Positions 16,356 through 22,935 of a stretch of 43,730 bases of DNA are shown here, in pieces. Position 1 is the first letter of the stretch, and the number at the start of each line of letters is the position of its first letter. A model generated the notes under the pieces. That model searched no databases and had not been told where the DNA came from. It saw nothing but the letters and a program-made list of their open reading frames with translations. A program made the translations under genes and the position numbers. This DNA is from Dehalococcoidia bacterium. Its GTDB lineage: Bacteria; Chloroflexota; Dehalococcoidia; Lucifugimonadales; UBA3495. The stretch is taken from positions 1-43,730 of the forward strand of contig JAJDTP010000008.1 in the NCBI GenBank assembly GCA_022827095.1, in the 5' to 3' direction.

Positions 16356-17174
16356 TTGACCAACGACCAGAACCTCTCGATTTCGGAAGCGATCAATAGG
16401 TTTGTTGAAGACCTGAAAGACAAAAAGCAGGCGATGCAGGGCCAGCAGGAATTGTTGCGTTTTCAGGCCCGGATAGGGAAAGACAAAGCGCTCGCTACGC
16501 TTCATGCCATAGAGGTTGGCGAATACGCCAAGTGGACCACCGAGAACGTGGAAGACCCGGCATCAAGGCTGGATCCGGTAAAGAAATTCCTGACGTTTGC
16601 CAACAAGCGCGGCTGGACCGAGATCAGCCTGGCGCGCTATGCGGCGGCCCCTCGGCGCAACCGGCGACGGTTCGCAGCCGGAGATTCAGGATCACGGGCG
16701 GCCGGCACACCCAGCGCGCGGCTGAGCCAGGAGCGTCATACCGAGCTGCAGGCCGAATTGCAGCGACTGCGGGAAGAGGTTCCGCAGATACGTGAAGCAA
16801 TCCGGTTGGCCCGGAGCGACGGCGACGTGCGGGAAAACGCCCCGCTGGACGCGGCGCGGGAGCAACAGCAGTTGACCGAACGCCGCATCCGACAGTTGGA
16901 GAACGACTTGGCCAACGTGGAAATCGTGGACGCGGCGAACGCCGACACGGAGCGGGTCGCCATCGGTTCGCGGGTCACGCTGCACGACGTGGCTTCTCAG
17001 CAGCAGCGGGTGTTTACGCTGGTGGACGTGCGTGAAGCGGACGTGTCGGCCGGGAAGATCTCGACGGTGTCGCCCATCGGACAGGCCCTGATGGGACGGA
17101 GCGCAGGGGAGGAAGTGACGATCACGACGCCCCGGGGCGCGGTGGAGTACCGAATCGAAGGCATCGGTGGATAA
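16356..17174 (+). CDS. GreA/GreB-type transcription elongation factor with N-terminal extension
   Basis: 272 residues if TTG 16356 is the start; GGAGGG lies 8 nt upstream, and the frame further upstream lacks features. Residues 122-272 are a full Gre factor: an antiparallel coiled coil (LSQERHTELQAELQRLREE), the tip with D157 and E160-N (GDVRENAPLDAAREQQ), which stimulates RNA cleavage in backtracked polymerase, and a C-terminal FKBP-like domain ending EEVTITTPRGAVEYRIEGI. The first 95 residues (ISEAINRFVEDLKDKKQ, later LDPVKKFLTFANKRGW) resemble the SAM-like core-binding domain of tyrosine recombinases, an unusual addition. They are joined by a basic linker (AAPRRNRRRF). The fusion reading is by eye. 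Confidence 0.8.
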   Translation: MTNDQNLSISEAINRFVEDLKDKKQAMQGQQELLRFQARIGKDKALATLHAIEVGEYAKWTTENVEDPASRLDPVKKFLTFANKRGWTEISLARYAAAPRRNRRRFAAGDSGSRAAGTPSARLSQERHTELQAELQRLREEVPQIREAIRLARSDGDVRENAPLDAAREQQQLTERRIRQLENDLANVEIVDAANADTERVAIGSRVTLHDVASQQQRVFTLVDVREADVSAGKISTVSPIGQALMGRSAGEEVTITTPRGAVEYRIEGIGG

Positions 17175-17234: not shown

Positions 17235-17702
17235 TTATCCGTTGATGTCGGCCACTGCCTGGAGTATCGTCTCCGGGTCCGGCAGGGTGCCCGGCTGATA
17301 GGTCTCCCGATACCGGATCACGCCCTGGGGATCGACGATGATCACCGCGCGGGTTCCGGCGCCGCGCTCCTCGTTCCAGAGGTCGTAAGCGGTGGTCACC
17401 TGGCCTTTGGGATGCCAGTCGGACAGTTCGGGATAGGGTAGTCCACCCATGGTGGTGGTCCAGGCCCGGTGAGCGGCTACGTGGTCACAACTGATACCCA
17501 GCACCTGGGCATTCAACTCCTGGAACCGCGGGTTAAAGCGGCGAAAGGAGGTGGCCTGGTCCGTTCAACCGCTGGTGAAGTCCAGGACGTGGAAGGACAG
17601 GACCACGGTGTGGGTGCCGCGGTAGGCGCTCAGAGATATGTCTCCATCATTGGGAGACGGGAGAGTGAAGTCCGGCGCGTTGTCGCCGATTTGACCAGGC
17701 AT
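17235..17702 (-). CDS. Selenocysteine-containing peroxiredoxin (AhpC/TSA family), UGA = Sec46
   Basis: The frame starts at ATG 17702 (GAGGAG 7 nt upstream) and runs 155 residues to TAA-type stop at 17235, with one in-frame TGA at 17567-17565. Around it the protein reads VVLSFHVLDFTSG-[TGA]-TDQATSFRRFNPRF, then AQVLGISCDHVAAHRAW and LPYPELSDWHPKGQV, VWNEERGAG, FIID-like VIIVDPQGVIRY. Peroxiredoxins reduce peroxides with a peroxidatic Cys in exactly this position (F-T-x2-C-T-x-Q). So the TGA replaces that Cys as residue 46, and the frame on both sides is intact and conserved, as for known selenoprotein peroxiredoxins. TGA is a normal stop in many genes here (for example 2317, 6243, 12902), so recoding to Trp is not likely. 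Cys72 is the only Cys. A short CCGC/GCGG hairpin lies downstream (17541-17526); no consensus SECIS loop was confirmed. Confidence 0.85.
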
Positions 17703-17721
17703 CTAGATTCTCCTCGGTTGA

Positions 17722-17897: not shown

Positions 17898-18911
17898 TTG
17901 GACGTGGTATTTGACCGGGGGGTGTTTCTCCCTGAAGTAGGATTGTGGCTTGATGCCCTGCGCAAGCAGGACACCTCGGTCATCTCCCACGCGCACTCGG
18001 ACCACACCGCCAAACATCGCCGTCCCGTGCTGACGACCGGCACCCGGTTGCTGCTGGGCGACTATTTGGATCGATCTGATCCGGTGGAGTTGGAATTCGG
18101 CGAGACGCTGGATTTCCCGGATTGCGCCATAACTCTCTACCCGGCAGGCCACTGCCTGGGATCCGCGCAGACCCTGGTAGAGAGCAAGGCGACCGGAGAG
18201 CGCCTGCTGTATACGGGCGATTTGAGAGTGCAGCCTTCGCCGATCAACGAAGCACACCAGCCAGTCCCCTGCGACGTGCTTGTGATCGAAAGCACCTACG
18301 GCCGTCCTGACTACGTTTTCCCACCGCAGGCTGAGGCAATCGGCACGGCGATGCGAGTGGTGGCCCAATGGCTGGATCAGGGAGCCTTGCCCGTGGTCCT
18401 GGGGTGGCGACTGGGCAAGGCGCAGGAAGCGTTGTATCACCTGCTGACGGCCGGTTTCCGCGTAGCGTGCGAAGAGAGCGTCTACGAGATTGCGCGGAAG
18501 TACGAGCAATCCGGCGTGGAGTTCCCCGGGGAGTATCGCGTTTGCGACGGGGAATTCCGGGAAGGCGAGGTGCTTCTCTTCCCGCCGGGCAAAAAATCGC
18601 GGGAAACGGTTCACGCATTAACCCCGGAACGCCGGCCCGTCCGCTACCTCGAGCTAACCGGCTGGGCGGCGGGAACAGGAGTGAAGCCCTGGGGTAGAGG
18701 GAGACCCGGCGACTCCAGCCTGCCCTACAGCGATCACGCCGATTTCAACGACTTGGTCGGCTACGTCGAAGCAGTGCAACCCAGGCAGGTGTACACCGTG
18801 TTCGGGTTCCCCGACCTGGCGGAGCACCTGCGCCGCCAGGGTTACTCGGCCATCCACCTGGGAAAGAACGCCACGGAGGCTGACCGCGCGTTCCAGATGC
18901 CGCTGCTGTAA
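17898..18911 (+). CDS. MBL-fold exonuclease, beta-CASP/SNM1-like (ligase-associated type)
   Basis: 337 residues. The start is probably TTG 17898, as no ATG fits and the family begins near VVFDRGVFLPEVGLWLD. It has the MBL motif ISHAHSDHTAKH (about 29-40), a second His in YPAGHCLGSAQ, the Asp in LYTGDLRV, a helical insert with an acidic residue pair, PCDVLVIESTYGRP, and the C-terminal LPYSDHADFNDLVGYVEAVQP. This is the arrangement of the exonuclease paired with DEXH helicase and ATP-dependent DNA ligase, or of mRNA 3'-processing nucleases. The partner helicase and ligase are not in the window. Divergent from peroxiredoxin. Confidence 0.8.
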   Translation: MDVVFDRGVFLPEVGLWLDALRKQDTSVISHAHSDHTAKHRRPVLTTGTRLLLGDYLDRSDPVELEFGETLDFPDCAITLYPAGHCLGSAQTLVESKATGERLLYTGDLRVQPSPINEAHQPVPCDVLVIESTYGRPDYVFPPQAEAIGTAMRVVAQWLDQGALPVVLGWRLGKAQEALYHLLTAGFRVACEESVYEIARKYEQSGVEFPGEYRVCDGEFREGEVLLFPPGKKSRETVHALTPERRPVRYLELTGWAAGTGVKPWGRGRPGDSSLPYSDHADFNDLVGYVEAVQPRQVYTVFGFPDLAEHLRRQGYSAIHLGKNATEADRAFQMPLL

Positions 18912-22133: not shown

Positions 22134-22935
22134 GGTCTGTTGACATTTTACCGGAGCCAGATGAGAGCGTCTGCGAAGTGGAGGAAGGCCAGGTATCTGG
22201 CGTCCAGTTTCTCAAACCGGGAGAAAATCCGGCGAAACTGCTTCATCTTGTTGATGAAGCACTCCACCAGATGCCGTTCCCGGTATAAATGGGCATCATA
22301 TTCGTGCGGCGCCTTCCGGTTGGAACGGGGCGGGATTACCGGGGTCATCCCCCGCTCCAGAATGGACTGGCGGAACGGTTGGGCGTCATACCCTTTGTCC
22401 GCGATCATGTACTCGCTCTGGTAACCGGCGATTGGCTCATGGGCCTGTCCTCCGGTGAGGATGAACCGCAAAGGGTTGCCCAGCGCGTCCACGTTCACGT
22501 GGACTTTGGCGCTGAAACCGCCGCGGCTCAGGCCCAGGGCCTGAGCTCCCTGCCCCCTTGCTTTGGGGCGCGCCAGCGGCGCAAGGGTGGGCCCGCACCA
22601 CCGTGCTGTCAATGATGAGATGCTCCAGGTCTGGGTCCCCAGCGAAGCGGTGATGCATTTGTTCCCAGATGCCCTGGTCAGCCCAGCGGGAAAACCGTTT
22701 GTACACGCTGTTGCAATTCCCATACTCGGCCGGCAGCAGACGCCACTGGGCGCCGGAACGGGAAATCCACAGCGCCGCCTCGAGAAAACGCCGGCATTCT
22801 GCTTCCTGACCAACGTATTCCTGACCAACGTAGAGACCGGTGCAACCGCGCAGGAACTGGAGAATTCGATCCCATTGCTCCGATGATAGTCTAACGCTGC
22901 TCACACGGCCATTATAATCAAATGTCAACAGACCC
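22133..22935. mobile_element. IS5-type insertion sequence, about 803 bp
   Basis: Perfect 16-bp inverted ends: GGGTCTGTTGACATTT (22133-22148) and its reverse complement (22920-22935). It encloses one transposase coding region on the minus strand. Flanks are CTAG (22130-22133, including the stop of the upstream gene) and CCAG on the right (22936 region), so a 4-bp IS5-like YTAR duplication is only near-matching. Confidence 0.85.
22148..22928 (-). pseudogene. IS5 family transposase, frame-shifted or two-frame
   Basis: The N-terminal half (22437-22928, MTFDYNGRVSSVRLSSEQW) and the C-terminal half (ending near 22148) lie in different frames. In the first, residues 4-110 include the DUF4096-like LFKALW-type region (FLEAALWISRSGAQWRLLP) and the catalytic Asp in DLEHLIIDSTVVRAH. 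The second begins near PKARGQGAQALGLSRGGFSAKVHVNVDALG and carries MIADKGYDA (second Asp) and RERHLVECFINKMKQFRRI (Glu). A net +1 (or -2) shift is needed around 22535-22560. Some IS5-family groups use a programmed frameshift, so it may be functional; I cannot decide from the sequence. Confidence 0.7.

Follow-up and report, generated by a model that had tools for sequence, protein, structure and literature searches.

An AhpE-type peroxiredoxin gene with a conserved in-frame UGA at the peroxidatic position, a predicted selenoprotein of a Dehalococcoidia bacterium

The window analyzed here is a stretch of 43,730 nucleotides from a Dehalococcoidia bacterium (contig JAJDTP010000008.1, assembly GCA_022827095.1). 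On its minus strand, a gene for an AhpC/TSA peroxiredoxin stands alone between two genes of the opposite strand (Table 1). Judging from their translations, the flanking open reading frame which ends at 17174 has a C-terminus that looks GreA-like, and the one at 17898-18911 resembles an MBL-fold exonuclease. Further away, at 22148-22928 on the minus strand, two overlapping frames resemble an IS5-type transposase interrupted by a frameshift. The peroxiredoxin frame (17702-17235) runs from an ATG start to a TAA stop and contains exactly one in-frame TGA (17567-17565, codon 46). A previous reading of this DNA, made from the sequence only, had described a lone in-frame TGA in an otherwise intact 155-codon frame with a normal start and ribosome site, a description with which the ATG, the AGGAG at a 7 nt spacing and the TAA fully agree.

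Table 1. Features of the peroxiredoxin locus (positions in the window)
Feature	Position	Strand	Description and basis
AhpE-type AhpC/TSA peroxiredoxin gene, predicted selenoprotein	17235..17702	(-)	155 codons + TAA; frame, Pfam, AhpE alignment, AlphaFold model
UGA codon 46, predicted to be read as Sec at the peroxidatic position	17565..17567	(-)	TSGU, TxxU motif; frame, AhpE alignment, conservation
Ribosome binding site AGGAG	17710..17714	(-)	Read directly; 7 nt spacer to ATG
Putative bacterial SECIS hairpin	17517..17551	(-)	~15-50 nt after UGA, within the reading frame; codon-shuffle, pair counts, genus fold

When the TGA is translated as a residue, the protein begins MPGQIGDNAPDFTLPSPNDGDISLSAYRGTHTVVLSFHVLDFTSGUTDQATSF... 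and the Pfam AhpC-TSA match, which spans residues 5-131 (E 2.9e-35), is unbroken over the TGA. The peroxidatic Cys of Mycobacterium tuberculosis AhpE aligns with UGA 46, which places the TGA at the peroxidatic position, as the earlier reading had held. An AlphaFold model built from 27 homologues has a pLDDT of 88.7 and finds its best PDB matches in M. tuberculosis AhpE (TM 0.89-0.92, 35-36% identity). The continuity of the domain bears directly on the possibility that UGA is a true stop subject to regulated termination, in which case the gene would yield a peptide of 45 residues and, from its own start, a second product downstream. Most genes use UGA as a stop, and known systems read through Sec codons only in part. 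However, the domain spans the UGA and the UGA is itself the catalytic residue, so that neither piece would have an active site, and such a true stop is very improbable. Partial termination at the UGA may nonetheless take place as a side effect.

A scan of genome contigs retrieved 31 relatives of the peroxiredoxin, mostly from Chloroflexota MAGs (SAR202, Dehalococcoidia), along with a few from Entotheonella, a Proteobacteria-labelled MAG and an Armatimonadota MAG. All 27 close homologues (27/27), which stem from independent assemblies, have TGA at codon 46, and more distant relatives among the 31 have Cys at this position. The order was then surveyed across 147 genomes, 97 of which contained a match at E <= 1e-30. 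Among the resulting 100 matches, 94 have one TGA. Of the six others, five come from genomes of a single family (f24) and have TGC or TGT at this codon; the sixth is the second AhpE-like copy of genome G035, a canonical one. selA was found in 84 of the 92 order genomes with the TGA form, the other eight being at most 90% complete. Homologues found in plasmid records are all below 60% identity. Among the close Sec homologues, L044-L046 and L050 come from MAGs that carry the labels Proteobacteria, Entotheonella and Armatimonadota, and the nesting of L044-L046 in the Chloroflexota tree suggests horizontal transfer or mis-binning.

These homologues answer the question, raised in the sequence-only reading, of whether TGA or Cys codons occupy position 46. 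A recent point mutation or a sequencing error turning a Cys codon into TGA would make the gene a pseudogene or an assembly artefact, and it would take a single base change (TGC or TGT to TGA) in an order where one family does have Cys forms. Against it stand the presence of TGA in every one of 27 close homologues and in 94 of the 100 matches across the order, the absence of the hairpin signal described below from Cys forms, and purifying selection 3' of the TGA. Indeed, 106 of the 114 differences found 3' of the SECIS between this gene and its four nearest relatives lie at the third codon position, so the region after the TGA is under protein-level purifying selection. Conservation of the TGA over tens of genera rules out mutation or assembly error, to which we attach a negligible probability.

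The genome (3.79 Mb in 35 contigs, 97.65% complete) has selA (541 bits), selB (355 bits, over cut-off), selD (376 bits, over cut-off) and a tRNA-Sec (66.4 bits) with anticodon TCA (UCA), that is, each of the sel genes that the sequence-only reading had proposed to look for. selD (C20:25694-26614, L013) has one in-frame TGA, read as HCAGUAAK, and is predicted to be a selenoprotein gene itself, coding for a Sec form of SelD. PF00578 matches 13 places in the genome, seven of which, including the peroxiredoxin, have one in-frame TGA. The genome is selenoprotein-rich: besides the peroxiredoxin, five PF00578 genes (L101, L103, L104, L105 and L107) have UGA at the active site, in the motifs APWUPHC, GVWUPYC, TYCUVNC, ATWUPVC and SYTUPPF. 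In the first four of these motifs, UGA takes the place of the leading Cys in a CxxC-like motif, and the SYTUPPF protein is deiodinase-like; this motif reading covered every TGA-bearing place except C5:767811-768140. Because further PF00578 genes have UGA at the active site, reading UGA as Sec at redox positions seems to be a general habit of this organism.

In-frame UGA in several genes could also be produced by a genome-wide reassignment of UGA to a different residue, Trp or Cys for instance. Yet the PF00578 genes lacking UGA translate without difficulty using Cys and Trp codons, and in the places whose motifs were read UGA sits at redox Cys positions and nowhere else. The genome also contains selA, selB, selD and tRNA-Sec, and a hairpin lies behind the codon only in UGA forms. 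Reassignment is accordingly given virtually no chance, in line with the earlier view that no general code change is indicated.

No SECIS had been confirmed by eye when the sequence was first read, and an Rfam scan of the region returned only chance matches. A single-sequence fold of 61 nt gave z -0.98 against plain dinucleotide shuffles, which is not significant. Synonymous-codon shuffles, which respect the encoded protein, took over from these, and a 45-nt segment beginning at +9 relative to the first UGA base was compared with synonymous recodings using the gene's own codon usage. By this measure, the hairpin of the window gene has a z of -2.16 (p 0.017), and z is negative in 43/43 genes (mean z -2.6) and in 18 of 20 distant Sec genes (mean about -2.0). 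When the segment is slid along the gene, the stability signal tops out at +9 and, more than one hairpin length away, drops to about -0.9 to +0.5. The hairpin signal is missing from the Cys forms, namely the four f24 forms tested and the canonical copy (z -0.73 to +0.40).

Pair counting on a structure joining alignment columns 17-21 with 45-49 and 24-28 with 38-42 gave 79.7% paired cells versus 71.5% in shuffled alignments, and 31 cells changed on both sides versus 11.7, both comparisons being made with shuffles that ignore relatedness. Shifting the pairing partners abolishes the pairing excess. RNAalifold found no consensus fold for all 37 diverse sequences together, since different lineages pair in different registers; run on the genus alone, it recovered the hairpin. 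In the window clade, the outer stem is displaced by about three bases from the register that most relatives use. A bacterial SECIS is expected to carry a G in a small apical loop. Most sequences of alignment A1 have a G (column 29 or 30) within or next to the loop, its placement varying with the pairing register. Since the signal peaks only at that offset and is absent from Cys forms, the hairpin is very probably a bacterial SECIS, and the synonymous-shuffle and pair-counting tests thus provide the SECIS-like element which the sequence-only reading had suggested searching for.

Collectively, the gene is intact, the Sec machinery is present, the UGA is conserved, the hairpin is under selection and the fold is that of AhpE. 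It is therefore close to certain, in our judgment, that the gene encodes a 155-residue AhpE-type peroxiredoxin with Sec as the peroxidatic residue, UGA 46 being decoded under the direction of a SECIS. That the organism decodes UGA as Sec had been proposed at the outset; machinery, UGA conservation and hairpin all favour this proposal, Sec insertion being inferred. By analogy with known bacterial Sec decoding, the hairpin that follows the UGA by about 15-50 nt would work as a bacterial SECIS and recruit SelB with Sec-tRNA(UCA) to the ribosome, leading to the decoding of UGA 46 as Sec. SelA would make Sec on tRNA-Sec with selenophosphate supplied by SelD. By analogy with known peroxiredoxins, Sec46, together with Thr43 and Arg118, would exert peroxidase activity, reducing peroxides with formation of a selenenic acid. 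The reductant of this intermediate would be a low-molecular-weight thiol or a redoxin, possibly aided by Cys72.

Sec peroxiredoxins are an established kind. One with a TxxU motif (PrxU) was described in Eubacterium acidaminophilum (Sohling 2001; cited in PMC9312934). They are among the most abundant selenoproteins of the Sargasso Sea, with 43 genes (PMC1088965), and GOS data contain 253 sequences (PMC2398784). The window gene adds a member to a kind known since 2001 and abundant in ocean metagenomes. It shares with PrxU and the Sargasso and GOS proteins an AhpC/TSA domain, UGA at the peroxidatic TxxU, a SECIS-like hairpin just 3' and the Sec machinery. In contrast, it scores 68 bits on the PrxU model (NCBIfam NF040737), whose cut-off is 270. 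The thiol peroxidase Prx-SUH (NF045827) is likewise Sec-containing with a peroxiredoxin fold but belongs to a different family (34.5 bits versus a cut-off of 298), and no NCBIfam model reaches its cut-off on the window peroxiredoxin. The best match in sequence and fold remains the 1-Cys AhpE of M. tuberculosis (PDB 4x0x, 1xxu), which has the same length, Thr and Arg. AhpE differs in having a peroxidatic Cys, the PxxxTxxC motif and a Phe before the Pro, where the window protein has Sec and His38-Val39, plus Cys72.

A review describes PxxxTxxU as highly conserved in Sec peroxiredoxins (PMC13188914). The 155-residue window protein, of AhpE type, departs from this canonical motif, Pro being replaced by Val39. 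In alignment A2, the position seven before Sec is Val or Ile in 27/27 members, and His38, Thr43 and Arg118 are invariant. Thr at -3 from Sec is found in 27/27 A2 members and in 20/20 distant Sec members. The missing Pro counts against a canonical active site but not against a selenoprotein, PxxxTxxC being a superfamily motif. A universal loss of Pro in Sec members was considered and dropped, as 8 of 20 distant Sec members retain Pro at -7. Since these distant members partly have Pro, its loss probably arose inside the Sec family. Most members have Cys72, but in some its place is taken by Val, Thr or Asn, so it cannot serve as an obligatory resolving residue.

A maximum-likelihood tree built from 56 proteins places the f24 Cys forms (L086-L090) among Sec forms, beside f31, and its starred branches force at least two changes. 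The f24 branch is long (1.0), and selA is still found in four of the five f24 genomes. A reversion of this family from Sec to Cys is probable from this topology, given here with its long branch. In the literature searched, neither the Val or Ile that stands in for the hallmark Pro of PxxxTxxC nor the apparent Sec-to-Cys reversion of one family seems to have been described. "Chloroflexi" is absent from the text of PMC1088965 and PMC2398784, as is "SAR202" from the latter, and the search found no paper combining SAR202 with selenoproteins. One tentative idea, which we hold to be rather doubtful, is that H-[V/I]-x-x-F-T-x-G-U forms a distinct active site in which Sec allowed or required the loss of a near-universal catalytic Pro, a loss maybe kept after the f24 reversion to Cys. 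If true, the order would offer a natural experiment on the reasons for using Sec.

Automatic annotation would split this gene in two. Importantly, the finding points to heavy use of selenium in the redox proteins of widespread uncultured marine and sponge-associated Chloroflexota, near SAR202, and such Chloroflexota could be one possible source of the Sec peroxiredoxins of ocean metagenomes. The replacement of Pro by Val or Ile, together with the clade of Cys forms, provides natural pairs with which to probe why Sec is used.
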